A DNA stretch of 64,000 nt, from assembly GCA_029262735.1 (NCBI GenBank), contig JAJCYY010000062.1:1-64000 (forward strand), in the 5' to 3' direction. Numbering within the stretch: the stretch's first letter is position 1; every line of letters starts with the position of its first letter. Below, in pieces: positions 2,421-57,658 of the stretch. The stretch comes from Chloroflexota bacterium. GTDB taxonomy: Bacteria > Chloroflexota > Dehalococcoidia > Lucifugimonadales > Lucifugimonadaceae. Under the pieces are notes generated by a model. That model ran no database searches. It had not been told where the DNA came from and saw only the letters and a program-made list of their open reading frames with translations. A program made the translations under genes and the position numbers.

Positions 2421-2457
2421 ATTGGTAGAGAGCCAAACACAGAAAGGTATGCCTGAT

Positions 2458-3585
2458 ATGGATTTGAGCACGGGATCGGCGATATTCGACAGCCTTGGCG
2501 TAAACCGCGTGATCAACGGCCGCGGCTGGATCACCGTCGTTGGCGGTAGCATCATGCCGCCTGAAGTGGCGACAGCAATGAGCGAGGCCACCGACAGCTA
2601 CGTCGATCTGAACGAGCTGAATCTTGCCGCAGGGCGTGCGATCGCCGGTTATACCGGTGCCGAAGCCGGCCTCGTCGTCGCTGGCGCAGGCGCAGGGTTG
2701 ATGTTGCAAGCCGCCGCTTGCATCACCGGCTCTGACCCTGAGTTGAGACAGCGCTTGCCGGACACGGATGGCGTGCCAAACGAAATCCTGATCCACAGCG
2801 GGCATGTCACCAACTACACCGGATGCTATCGGTCCGCCGGTGCGAAGGTTGTCACCTGGGGCGATGGAGATGGACCGGCCGATGAGCAGCTTGAGACCGC
2901 TATCGGTCCGGACACTGCGGCAATCGCATATGTCTTTCACCCCTGGAACTCCTCTCCCTTAACGCTCGAACAGACCGTCACGATAGCGCACGCCCGCGAT
3001 CTGCCTGTGGTTGTTGACGCAGCGGTCATGTTGCCTCCCGCCAGCAGCTTGACGACCTACATTGAGCAGGGCGCGGACATGGTGACCTTTTCCGGCGGCA
3101 AAGGGCTACGGGGGCCGCAGTCGACGGGAATACTCTGTGGCAGGTCCGATCTGATCGAAGCCGCTCGTCTAAACAACGCGCCGAACCACGGCATTGGCCG
3201 ACCGGCAAAGGTCTGCAAAGAGGAGATTGCCGGGCTGATCGCAGCTCTCAACCTATTTGTGAGGACGGATCACGAGGCTGAGTGGGCGGTGTGGCGGGCG
3301 CGGTCGGCGGTGATCGCTTCAGCGGTGAACGACATTCCGGGACTCGAGGTGAAGATCGAGGACAACGACCCGAACCGGGCTGGCCCCGCTGTTGCGGTCT
3401 ACTTCCGTGACGGTTGGGATGGGCCTGACGCGGAGGCTATCCTGGAGCGGCTTGCAGCCAGGAAGCCCTCGATAAGAGCCGGTTCAGGCAACTACGACAA
3501 TGAGCTGTTCATCACTCCGGTCACCCTCAAGGAGGGCGAAGAGCACATTGTGGCGAGCGCGTTGCGCGAGGACCTGCTTGCCTAA
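2458..3585 (+). CDS. SelA-like PLP-dependent enzyme (aminotransferase-fold lyase family)
   Basis: This is a fold-type I PLP enzyme of the SelA-like family (COG1921), which includes D-glucosaminate-6-phosphate ammonia lyase-type enzymes. The internal-aldimine lysine is K215 in FSGGKGLRGPQ. The LPDTDGVPNEILI block and the APNHGIGRPAKV block are family hallmarks, and the latter is nearly identical in the paralogue at 49154. The 375 residues are shorter than true selenocysteine synthase (about 460), so a Sec-biosynthetic role is not claimed. ATG 2458 was chosen because AAAGG lies 10 bases upstream. ATG 2449 is too close to that site, and TTG 2422 falls at the end of a repeat. The gene follows the amidohydrolase at 1175 and may act in the same pathway on an amino- or amide-bearing acid. 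The reaction is unknown. Confidence 0.85.
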   Translation: MDLSTGSAIFDSLGVNRVINGRGWITVVGGSIMPPEVATAMSEATDSYVDLNELNLAAGRAIAGYTGAEAGLVVAGAGAGLMLQAAACITGSDPELRQRLPDTDGVPNEILIHSGHVTNYTGCYRSAGAKVVTWGDGDGPADEQLETAIGPDTAAIAYVFHPWNSSPLTLEQTVTIAHARDLPVVVDAAVMLPPASSLTTYIEQGADMVTFSGGKGLRGPQSTGILCGRSDLIEAARLNNAPNHGIGRPAKVCKEEIAGLIAALNLFVRTDHEAEWAVWRARSAVIASAVNDIPGLEVKIEDNDPNRAGPAVAVYFRDGWDGPDAEAILERLAARKPSIRAGSGNYDNELFITPVTLKEGEEHIVASALREDLLA

Positions 3586-3904: not shown

Positions 3905-5434
3905 ATGTGGAAACTCCGTCCCCTGGTCGTTGCTGGTGTCCTGGTGACATCTGCAACTCTCGTCGCGTGTGGGAGCAACACTGAAAACCCGGACTCATCG
4001 GCGCCTACGGCCGAGGCCACAAGAACTCCTGAGACTACGGCAACTGCGACACCGTCGGCGGCGATCGCCAGCGCAACCGCAACGCTGCCAACCGTGACTC
4101 CGGAGCTTGAGCCCACGATGACCAACGTCGAAGATGCAGTGCGCATCATGAATTCGATCTTCTTCAGCAGCCGCGAGTTGAACCGGGGTTCGATTATCTC
4201 GGCGGGGCACAACGGAAATGCCGCCCTGGTCCCGGTTCTCGTGGAGGCCGCCAGCCGTACTTTCGATACCGATATTGCACTTGAGATCGCCGATGCGCTG
4301 GACAGGCTGACCGGTGAGAGAGTGGGCGGCGATTTCGTACTGGTGGCACCGTGGTACGAGTGGCTCGGCAACCAGCCCGATTTCAATGAGCTACCGGGCT
4401 TCGATGCCTGGAAGGGCAGTCTCTACGGCGGGATAGACCCTGCGTTCAAGGACTTCTTCTATGAGGGTGTTCCAAGAACGGTTCCACTCTGGACCGTGCA
4501 GTGGGGTGGGGTTGCGAAGGACGGCATACCGCCTCTTGAGATGCCCCAGGTCCTGCATGCCGATGTCGCAACCTACCTGCTACCTGACGAGCCGGTCTTT
4601 GGCGTTGTCGTAAACGGTGAGGCGAGGGCCTACCCGCACCGAATCATGGGTTGGCACGAGATGGCCAACGACATACTGGGCGGCAAGCCGATCTCGGTGG
4701 TGTTTTGAACGCTTTGCGGATCGGGCGTCGTGTACGACGCCGAGGTTAACGGCGAGGTGACCACGTTTGGCACATCTGGCTTCCTGTACCAGAGCAACAA
4801 GCTTATGTACGACAGGGCGACCGACACCCTGTGGCATTCGCTGACGGGGGAGCCGGTGATCGGAAGGCTGGCAAACTCCGGTATCGAGCTGACGAGCCTG
4901 CCTGTCGATGTCGTTACGTGGAGCAACTGGGTGGCTGCGCATCCGGACACGACGGTGCTATCGACTGAGACCGGATTCCGTCGACCGTATCTGCCGCCCA
5001 GCGATCCTGACTCGGCGTACTTCGAATACTTCAACTCACCGAATCGCCTGTTCCCGACGTTCACAGAGGATGAACGGCTGGGAGACAAAGAGGTGGTCCT
5101 GGGCCTGCATTTCGAAAGCAGTGCGAAGGCCTACCAGGTTACGACGCTGGCCGAGAAGGTTGTTGTGAACGATACAGTTGGTGGCCAGGACGTGGTGATA
5201 ATCACCGGGCTGGGATCAGGTGGCGCCAGTGCGTTCGAGCGGGACGGCCTGACTTTCTCTGTTGCGGACGGCGCGGATGAAATTATCGATAGCGACGGCA
5301 CGCGCTGGCGGGTCACAGGAGATGCCCTGGTGACGGTGGATGGCACTCGTACTCTCGATCGGCTGCCATCAAGGGAGCTGTTCTGGCTCGGCTGGTCGGC
5401 GTTTTTCCCGCTGACCGAGTTATATGGGGAGTGA
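3905..5434 (+). CDS. DUF3179 lipoprotein with in-frame TGA at the CxxC motif (candidate selenoprotein, UxxC)
   Basis: Two abutting frames, 3905-4708 and 4730-5434, are the same reading frame interrupted only by TGA at 4706-4708 (codon 268). Read through, they give 509 residues. These are a lipoprotein signal with lipobox LVAC near residue 22, a Thr/Pro-rich spacer, an alpha-helical region, and a DUF3179 domain from about residue 190. In this family a CPLC-type motif follows a GGKP-VSVTF strand. Here the sequence reads GGKPISVVF, TGA, TLCGSGVVYD, so the TGA replaces the first cysteine. Downstream family features (FGTSGFLYQSNKLMYDR, WHSLTGEPVIG) are intact. GGCGTCG/CGACGCC at 4724-4741 forms a 7-bp hairpin with a TGTA loop 22 nt after the TGA, within reported limits for bacterial SECIS elements. 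The alternatives are a one-base nonsense mutation, a sequencing error or a recent pseudogene. The DUF3179 call is firm and Sec decoding is inferred. Confidence 0.75.
4724..4741 (+). promoter_or_regulatory. Candidate bacterial SECIS hairpin
   Basis: The stem is GGCGTCG/CGACGCC, 7 perfect pairs, with loop TGTA (4731-4734) and a G in the second loop position. The loop begins 22 nt after the TGA at 4706. Published criteria for bacterial SECIS elements place the loop about 16-37 nt after the UGA, with a G among the first two loop bases. The stem is encoded by GVVYDA codons, so it could also arise by chance from coding constraints. Confidence 0.5.
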
Positions 5435-5496
5435 GTCCGGGCGGGTGATTGGGGATGTAACTGGTGGGTGGAGTGGGATGAGGGGCGGCATCGTTT

Positions 5497-5662
5497 TCGT
5501 CCCGAAACAGCGCGAGGGACCTGGATGAGGGGCGGCATGCGCGGTTTAGTGGTCTTGTTCGCTGGATGGACCGGGATGCTGTGATGGCTTTAGCTGACGC
5601 AGACGGGGGTTCTGGTGCGTTGCCTCATCCGCCCCGGGTCCCTCACTCCGTTTCGGGACGAA
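5497..5662. mobile_element. MITE-like inverted-repeat element, copy 1
   Basis: A 166-bp non-coding element bounded by perfect 13-bp terminal inverted repeats, TTCGTCCCGAAAC and GTTTCGGGACGAA. Subterminal GAGGGACC and GGATGAGG blocks are also inverted relative to each other. A second element of the same design lies at 17300-17480. Both share an internal TCTGGTGCGTTGCCTCATCC stretch before the right end. There is no transposase frame. It sits between two convergent genes, 15 bases from the stop of the next gene. Confidence 0.7.
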
Positions 5663-17299: not shown

Positions 17300-17480
17300 T
17301 TCGTCCCGAAACGCGGGTGCCCGCTTACGGGCGCGGGTCGTGGATGAGGGGTGGCGCGCACAGTCGGTCGTCTTGTTTACGGCATAAGCAATGCCACAGT
17401 AATGGTCTACGCCATTGCAGAGAGCGGTTCTGGTGCGTTGCCTCATCCACCCCGGATCCCTCACGCTGTTTCGGGACGAA
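17300..17480. mobile_element. MITE-like inverted-repeat element, copy 2
   Basis: A 181-bp element with perfect terminal inverted repeats. In this copy they extend to 15 bp, CCTTCGTCCCGAAAC (17298) and GTTTCGGGACGAAGG (to 17482). It contains a GGGTGCCCGCTTACGGGCGC palindrome near the left end, which copy 1 lacks, and shares GTGGATGAGGGG and GGTGCGTTGCCTCATCC with copy 1. It has no coding capacity. Confidence 0.75.
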
Positions 17481-17514
17481 GGAGGCGGCAGCTCGGACAG
17501 CGGCTGGCTACGTT

Positions 17515-49153: not shown

Positions 49154-50326
49154 ATGATCACTCTTGAACAGTTGGAGACCGACCCGTACGCCGCTCTTGG
49201 CGTACGGAAGTTCATCAACGCGACGTGTCATCACACGATGTTCGGCGGTACGTTGATTCCGGAGCCTTCGCTGAGAGCGATGCGCGCCGCTGCGGACCAC
49301 GCCGTTGACATGATGGAGCTTCAGAAGGCGACGGGCCGTGTCATCTCGCAGTACACGCACGCAGACGACGGATTCATCGTTTCGGGATGCGCGGCGGGAA
49401 TGCTCGTTGGCACCGCGGCGATACTGACAGGCTCGTCCCGGGCGAAGATGGAGCAGTTGCCGTACCTCGAGGACGGCAAGAACCTGTGCATCGCCAAGCG
49501 GTTTGCCAGGAAGATCGACCTTAACGACGGGACCGAGTACGTCGACCACGGATACGCGTTAGCGGTGCAGACGGCTGGCGTGAAGTTCGTCGAGGTCGGA
49601 CAAGATGAAGTAGTGACTGCCGAGGAGTTCGATTCTGCGTTCAACGAGAACGTGGCAATGGTGTACTGGGTTGGCTACGCGCCGCCCGGAGATATCGCAC
49701 TCCAGGACGTGATCGAGATTGCCCACGCCCACGATGTCCCGGTGCTCGTCGATGCGTCGAATTCGCTGCCTCCGCGTGAGAATCTGCACCACTTCATTGA
49801 CATGGGTGCGGACCTCGTTTGCTTCTCTGGAGGCAAGGGCCTCCAGGGTCCGCAGGGGGCCGGGATTGTCGCCGGGCGAGCTGATCTAATCGACGCGGTG
49901 GCGATGCAGTCTGCGCCCAATCACGGCATTGGGCGGGTTGCGAAGGTGAGCAAAGAAGAGGTTGTGGCTCAGATCTCGTCCCTGATCTGGTGGGCCGAGC
50001 AGGACGATGAAGATCGTATTACCGAACACCACAGGAAGAGTCAGCTGCTTGCGGGCCGGCTCGACGCATTGCCCGATTGCACAACGGAAGTCGTTTTTCC
50101 CGATCACTATCAGAGGCCATATCCGACGGTTCACGTTACTGTTCCGGTTGGTGGTGACCTTGACGGCGCTCAGTTGATCAAGCTGCTGCGTGAGGGAGAA
50201 CCGGCGATCGCAGCTATGACACACCCGTCTGATCCGAGTGTTGTCCGGCTGGATGTGCGACTTCTGGAAGACTCCGAGATAGAGGCGATCGGCAGGCGGC
50301 TGCAAGAGATTATGAACGGCGCGTGA
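49154..50326 (+). CDS. SelA-like PLP-dependent enzyme
   Basis: A 390-residue fold-type I PLP protein. The aldimine lysine is K228 in VCFSGGKGLQGPQGAG, and QSAPNHGIGRVAKVSKEEVVAQI (about residues 253-275) is nearly identical to a block in the paralogue at 2458. GCAAGMLVGTAAILTGSS is the first PLP-binding glycine segment. The family includes SelA and D-glucosaminate-6-phosphate ammonia lyase; this length and motif set fit the lyase-like branch rather than true SelA. The next gene, 236 bases downstream, is a DppB-type permease, and the importer and amidohydrolase genes follow, so the enzyme probably acts on the imported compound. Confidence 0.87.
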   Translation: MITLEQLETDPYAALGVRKFINATCHHTMFGGTLIPEPSLRAMRAAADHAVDMMELQKATGRVISQYTHADDGFIVSGCAAGMLVGTAAILTGSSRAKMEQLPYLEDGKNLCIAKRFARKIDLNDGTEYVDHGYALAVQTAGVKFVEVGQDEVVTAEEFDSAFNENVAMVYWVGYAPPGDIALQDVIEIAHAHDVPVLVDASNSLPPRENLHHFIDMGADLVCFSGGKGLQGPQGAGIVAGRADLIDAVAMQSAPNHGIGRVAKVSKEEVVAQISSLIWWAEQDDEDRITEHHRKSQLLAGRLDALPDCTTEVVFPDHYQRPYPTVHVTVPVGGDLDGAQLIKLLREGEPAIAAMTHPSDPSVVRLDVRLLEDSEIEAIGRRLQEIMNGA

Positions 50327-56410: not shown

Positions 56411-57658
56411 TTGTCTACCATCGAAAGAACCGGCAAAGAAGCTGACTGGGGCTCGATGTATCGAGATCTCGGCGTAGAGCCGGTCGTCAACGCCATTGGC
56501 AACGTGTCGGTGCTTGGCGGCTCAACCGCAAGTCCCGCTGTTCGCGCTGCGATGGAAAGTGCAAGCGATTCGTTCGCTCCCATGCTGGCAGTGGCGGAAA
56601 ACGCGTCCCGGGCGGTTGCCGAGATGCTGGGTGTCGAAGCGGCCTGGATCACCTCGGGCGCTGGTTCGGCGATCAGCCTCGCTGCCGCAGCGTGCATTGC
56701 TCGTGACGATGTCGGGGCCGTCGCCAAAATCCCGGACACTACCGGCATGCCAAACGAGATTCTGATCCAGAAGCGCCAGCGATATTCGTACGACCGTTGC
56801 CTGGAGCTGGCTGGCGGCGTGCTGGTGGAGGTTACCGGGGGCAGAGTTCCTGAAGAGGGAGAGTACAAGCCCGCTCTTGGACCGGCGCACAAGGCTGACG
56901 CGGACAGTGTGCCGGGCACAACTGCCGAGTCGCTTGCTGCCGCCATTGGTGAAAACACCGCGGCGATTCACTACGTTGCAGACGAACGCGCCAGGGACGA
57001 CACGATTCTCGGCTTCGACGAGATCCTGAAGGTGGCCCACGAGCACGATATTCCGCTGATAGTCGATGCCGCCGGTCAGGTCTTTCCTACCGACAACCTC
57101 TCGAAGTACGCTCGCGCCGGGGCCGACTTCGTCTGCTACGGAGCGAAATACATCGGAGCGCCACACTCGACCGGGTTCGTCGTCGGCAAGAAAGTGTGGG
57201 TCGACAGGCTGAAGCTGCACAGTTTCGTGGCGTTCGAGTCGCTTGGAATGCGTTCCTGGGGCCGACCGCACAAGGTCGACAGACAGGAGATGGTCGGCGT
57301 GGTTGCCGCTGTGCGGGAATGGGTGACCGCTAACCATGAGGAGCGGTTCGCTGAATACGACCAACGAATAGGCGTATTGCAGGACCGACTGGGCTCGTTG
57401 CGGGGTGTTACGACGACTGCCGTGCGGTCAACCGTCGGAGGCTCGTCCTATGGCTTGATCCTGGAGCTGGATTCGGACGTGGCGGGAGTGACTCTGCAAG
57501 AACTGGTGGACCGACTGAAGGAAGGCAGCCCTTCGATCTGGACACGAGTGGTCGGCGGTACGATGCTATTAGCCGTAAACTGCCTTGCGCCCTGTGAGGA
57601 CGCCATCGTTGGTGATCGAATCGCCTCCGTGCTTGCAGGCAGCCCGGGACAGGCTTAA
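56411..57658 (+). CDS. SelA-like PLP-dependent enzyme (divergent)
   Basis: A 415-residue PLP protein related to SelA-like enzymes at 2458 and 49154. It keeps KIPDTTGMPNEILIQKRQRYSYDRC. The aldimine lysine is K246 in YGAKYIGAPHSTG, where the others have SGGKGLxGPQ, so the phosphate-binding loop has diverged. It lies between two amidohydrolase paralogues on the same strand with gaps of 65 and 16 bases. The start is TTG 56411; ATG 56456 is an alternative that would remove 15 residues. Function in the module is unknown. Confidence 0.8.
   Translation: MSTIERTGKEADWGSMYRDLGVEPVVNAIGNVSVLGGSTASPAVRAAMESASDSFAPMLAVAENASRAVAEMLGVEAAWITSGAGSAISLAAAACIARDDVGAVAKIPDTTGMPNEILIQKRQRYSYDRCLELAGGVLVEVTGGRVPEEGEYKPALGPAHKADADSVPGTTAESLAAAIGENTAAIHYVADERARDDTILGFDEILKVAHEHDIPLIVDAAGQVFPTDNLSKYARAGADFVCYGAKYIGAPHSTGFVVGKKVWVDRLKLHSFVAFESLGMRSWGRPHKVDRQEMVGVVAAVREWVTANHEERFAEYDQRIGVLQDRLGSLRGVTTTAVRSTVGGSSYGLILELDSDVAGVTLQELVDRLKEGSPSIWTRVVGGTMLLAVNCLAPCEDAIVGDRIASVLAGSPGQA

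Follow-up and report, generated by a model that had tools for sequence, protein, structure and literature searches.

A gene for a predicted DUF3179 lipoprotein of a Chloroflexota bacterium with an in-frame UGA that is very probably read as selenocysteine

DUF3179 proteins with selenocysteine (Sec) have already been recorded in surveys of bacterial selenoproteins. The "DUF3179 domain-containing protein" (pfam11376), with the motif UxxC/T, is tabulated as a selenoprotein family in PMC9312934, and DUF3179 (UxxC/T) is tabulated again in PMC13188914, which credits it to a 2007 study of the Olavius algarvensis symbiont. The first-pass annotation of the locus described here had proposed a new selenoprotein family, which is wrong in view of these tables. 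The tabulated proteins have the Pfam family and the UxxC type of motif in common with the present gene; they are likened by family and motif only, and the present case differs in its host group, marine Dehalococcoidia, and in the presence of eight Sec paralogues in one genome. In Nitrososphaerota, Acidobacteriota, Pseudomonadota and other groups, the DUF3179 proteins with Cys are alike in domain and in the position of the motif, but TGC or TGT stands in place of TGA and no hairpin is kept beyond what the protein code demands. In a 2026 account, the selenoprotein-richest bacteria are mostly anaerobic Thermodesulfobacteriota, Synergistota and Clostridia, and Chloroflexota are unmentioned among them (PMC13188914). 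In an incomplete coverage of the literature, few papers mention DUF3179, and no work joining SAR202 with selenoproteins and no description of eight Sec DUF3179 paralogues in one marine Dehalococcoidia genome was found. The scale of Sec DUF3179 in marine Dehalococcoidia may therefore be undescribed so far.

The gene is located in a 64-kb window (the whole stretch of DNA that was analysed) of a draft genome of 4.29 Mb in 115 contigs, 90% complete and with 6% contamination. Its features are collected in Table 1. The TGA at codon 268 is, as first noticed, the sole internal stop of an otherwise open frame that ends at a TGA at 5432-5434, and turns the motif into U-T-L-C. Standard ORF calling cuts this frame into two pieces of 267 and 234 residues; the automatic annotation, which splits the DUF3179 gene into two ORFs there and misses the Sec residue, is thus corrected. 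The Pfam match to DUF3179 (PF11376) runs unbroken over the TGA with an E-value of 4.3e-79, and the score of the protein (266.4 bits against a curated cut-off of 27) places it in the family, in agreement with the initial identification. At its N-terminus the protein has a hydrophobic segment followed by L-V-A-C, and the N-termini of its relatives are similar, both of which fit its proposed nature as a lipoprotein. Beyond the lipobox, the only Cys is Cys271, and the full set of Cys and Sec residues in the protein is C22, U268 and C271.

Table 1. Features of the DUF3179 gene and its product (positions in the window)
Feature	Position	Strand	Basis or remark
Putative DUF3179 seleno-lipoprotein gene	3905..5434	+	509 residues if UGA 268 = Sec
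Putative signal peptide with lipobox L-V-A-C (residues 19-22, Cys22)	3905..3970	+	by-eye reading of the sequence
N-terminal all-helical region, residues 74-183	4124..4453	+	AlphaFold2 model
DUF3179 domain, residues 205-504	4517..5416	+	Pfam
First Rieske-like beta domain, residues 237-342, bears UxxC	4613..4930	+	VIA-align, predicted model
His251 codon	4655..4657	+	no variation in alignments of 47 and 39 homologues
TGA codon 268, putative Sec	4706..4708	+	relatives have TGA or Cys in the column
Cys271, partner of Sec268 in U-T-L-C	4715..4717	+	invariant in homologue alignments
Putative SECIS hairpin, 7 bp, loop UGUA	4724..4741	+	covariation, synonymous shuffles, invariant loop G
Second Rieske-like beta domain, no conserved Cys, residues 403-494	5111..5386	+	VIA-align, full model

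The genome contains 11 DUF3179 genes, eight of which carry a single in-frame TGA, in every case at the column of codon 268. The motifs of these eight are UTLC (two), UILC (two), UPLC (one) and UPIC (three), while two of the remaining paralogues (on contigs C9 and C102) have Cys at this position and a degenerate one (C83) has Trp. The domains are 24-55% identical among all eleven and 26-55% among the Sec paralogues, a level so low that the eight cannot be assembly duplicates. Within the same GTDB family, 120 homologue rows were compared at this codon: 73 have TGA (66 distinct Sec loci, as seven were fetched twice), 42 TGC or TGT, four Ser and one Trp. A scan of GTDB species genomes gave 80 wider relatives, ranging from Chloroflexota to Nitrososphaerota and sharing some genomes with the family set, with TGA in 23, Cys in 57 and nothing else. 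At a single column, some 90 loci with Sec and numerous ones with Cys show the exchange of TGA and Cys, which supports the proposal that TGA replaces the first Cys of CxxC. Could the TGA instead stem from faulty sequencing, or mark a gene that is decaying after a nonsense mutation? The draft state of the genome and the 6% contamination of its bin would leave room for this, but the same column carries TGA in the 66 family loci, in the 23 wider relatives and in seven paralogues of the same genome, and both the hairpin (below) and the downstream frame, whose loss in relatives would have pointed to decay, are conserved. A read error is implausible because the TGA recurs in many genomes, and error or pseudogene was rejected as having virtually no likelihood. 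Two relatives (L133 and L087) have Cys at the motif and a single in-frame TGA elsewhere, where their relatives have Trp; these are possibly sequence errors or early decay.

The nearest relatives of the gene come from MAGs labelled as marine Dehalococcoidia and SAR202. A tree of 134 rows contains seven Sec/Cys exchanges, at least five of them forced by starred branches; only such coarse counts were used, since the tree was built quickly and leaves many forks open. Its branching joins the gene to four Sec genes from other genera (support 99); the genome's own paralogues are spread over several separate Sec subfamilies. Closely related Sec and Cys copies of DUF3179 also adjoin on one contig of another genome (L086 and L155, G031:C25:9817-11811).

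The four components of the Sec machinery sought after the first-pass annotation are all encoded in the genome: tRNA-Sec (68.5 bits, with the anticodon tca according to ARAGORN), selB (338 bits), selA (543 bits) and selD (370 bits). The last has an in-frame TGA within ACAGUAGK, so that SelD is itself of the Sec type. UGA also acts as an ordinary stop: in the window, where no further convincing Sec candidate was found, it ends 24 of 48 large ORFs that do not overlap. This usage speaks against the codon being decoded as a different residue, such as Trp, through general recoding or a suppressor tRNA. The Trp of the degenerate C83 paralogue would fit such recoding, yet the alternative residue among relatives is nearly always Cys, and the genome has both the machinery for Sec and a hairpin resembling a SECIS; recoding was rejected on the TGA stops and the Cys alternatives, and its likelihood is negligible. 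Among genomes with a TGA copy of DUF3179, selB is found in 31 of 33, a co-occurrence that discriminates weakly because relatives lacking selB mostly lack any DUF3179. Of the two without selB, one (G038, 56% complete) has tRNA-Sec and the other (G002, 76% complete) has neither selB nor tRNA-Sec at strength.

The window encodes three SelA-like PLP enzymes (2422-3585, 49154-50326 and 56411-57658), one of them directly upstream of the selenoprotein gene. They score 21.8-46.9 bits against a selA cut-off of 267.9 and are probably catabolic enzymes prone to misannotation as SelA. The Cys-type DUF3179 gene on contig C9 (L040, C9:36398-37345) lies about 6-12 kb from selB (C9:28470-30314), and a Cys-type copy near selB on the same contig is also seen in many genomes of the family. 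The genome is larger than those of its congeners (4.29 Mb vs 2.3-3.3 Mb) and, with its 6% contamination, may be a mixed bin.

A hairpin with a 7-bp stem and a G in its loop (GGCGUCG-UGUA-CGACGCC) is present where it was first proposed, although its start had been misplaced: counted from the T of TGA, the hairpin begins 18 nt downstream, with 15 nt between, and the reported 22 nt is what separates the end of TGA from the apical loop (4731). Taken singly the hairpin is unremarkable, with a z of -1.25, 23 of 200 shuffles equally stable and no Rfam family matching at its position; it becomes convincing only through comparison of sequences. The loop G (4732) is nt 27 counted from the U of UGA and occupies a third codon position, where G is found in 73/73 distinct Sec sequences vs 26/92 Cys sequences. 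In the register of the window, 22 distinct Sec sequences show compensatory changes, with both sides changed in four of the seven pairs (14 cells). The covariation score is 0.288, compared with 0.087 in shuffles (0/500 as high) and at most 0.074 in slid versions, counts that are inflated by related rows and do not represent a probability. In one such exchange, GGC-GUC/GAC-GCC becomes GCC-GUC/GAC-GGC, by which Gly and Ala swap sides and the stem is kept. Stability was further compared, in two subfamily groups, with a null of synonymous shuffles in which the protein is kept. The mean z is -1.65 and -1.40 for Sec genes and -0.28 and -0.13 for Cys genes (Mann-Whitney p 4e-7 and 5e-10, values that are optimistic because related genes are not independent), and the gene in the window has a z of -2.1. 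Other subfamilies have stems of their own (CUGGAAU-CGGGU-AUUCCAG, GGGAUCG-GGUU-CGAUCCC and CCGGUC-UCGUGCAC-GACCGG) with the loop at the same position.

Together, the machinery, the TGA/Cys column and the comparative support for a SECIS element bear out the original selenoprotein reading, and it is very probable from these sequence comparisons that UGA 268 is read as Sec. The codon would be decoded by tRNA-Sec and SelB, with SelB binding the hairpin through its loop (G4732/U4733). In known selenoprotein systems, Sec insertion faces competition from termination, which would allow the UGA to be a regulated stop, with the 267-residue product as the main functional form and only occasional insertion of Sec. 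The short form, however, would be without most of the DUF3179 domain, and the part downstream of the UGA is conserved across relatives, which makes a regulated stop very improbable. The favoured interpretation, given a probability of about 0.8, is a lipid-anchored exported DUF3179 selenoprotein with Sec268 and Cys271 as a redox pair, one of eight Sec paralogues.

What might such a protein do? Its function is most likely that of a lipid-anchored extracytoplasmic redox protein with a Sec-x-x-Cys pair. After export and lipid anchoring, Sec268 and Cys271 would form, as the UxxC motif suggests, a selenenylsulfide/selenol redox pair on the outer side of the cytoplasmic membrane, possibly assisted by the invariant His251, and the pair may reduce a substrate or relay electrons to it. 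Glu252, Asn255 and Asp256 are likewise invariant in the homologue alignments, and with His251 they probably line the site. The neighbours of four orthologues are not kept as a set, and no operon or partner gene was found among them; scans for promoters and terminators gave nothing above chance. Just downstream of the selenoprotein gene lies an inverted repeat with 29-nt arms (TTCGTCCCGAAAC...) at 5496-5662, also present at 17300-17482. Whole or partial relatives of about 170 bp occur at dozens of sites in the genome (65 matches), and the repeat resembles a non-autonomous MITE or a palindromic repeat.

A search by sequence found no solved structures, and the fold was predicted with AlphaFold2, giving a pLDDT of 86.7 overall (mostly above 90 in the DUF3179 domain) for the full model and of 94.3 for residues 201-353 alone. 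The N-terminal region matches helical-repeat structures with Z up to 7.8, a range usual for helical repeats. Within the full model, both beta domains match Rieske proteins in VIA-align, the second one in this setting only (Z up to 7.4). With the first domain alone, all 50 matches listed are Rieske-fold proteins, from a best Z of 8.7 over 98/106 residues to 6.8 at rank 50, where VIA-align quotes a Z of 4-5 for models without a clear match. Foldseek matches to this domain are weak (best E 0.04), and no thioredoxin fold is among the matches listed by either program, an absence from a list that is not an exclusion. The predicted fold of both beta domains is thus like that of Rieske ferredoxins and NirD-type Rieske domains, from which the protein differs in having neither the cluster ligands (C-x-H...C-x-x-H) nor significant profile similarity. 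Homology to Rieske proteins by sequence was rejected, since hhalign gave no significant profile match (P 0.019, probability 2.4%) to a set of 20 Rieske sequences drawn from the same GTDB family and a permissive Pfam scan gave no Rieske match. For these reasons the protein is called Rieske-like in predicted fold, and not a Rieske protein. Such a scaffold, together with the invariance of His251 and Cys271, could suggest that a metal ion is coordinated by Sec268, Cys271 and His251 and that no redox pair is formed; with the Rieske pattern absent and Sec268 and Cys271 the only chalcogen ligands left, metal binding is unlikely, and the redox pair is preferred. More speculatively, and with the odds somewhat against it, DUF3179 may be a tandem Rieske-type scaffold in which the Fe-S site was replaced by Sec-x-x-Cys, and which expanded to at least eight lipid-anchored surface selenoproteins in marine Dehalococcoidia.

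As to what DUF3179 does, the predicted Rieske-like fold is the first clue from structure found in this analysis. With eight Sec paralogues of a single family in one genome, marine Dehalococcoidia would join the selenoprotein-rich lineages known, and the many natural Sec/Cys pairs, some of them neighbours in one genome, provide material for asking why Sec is kept.
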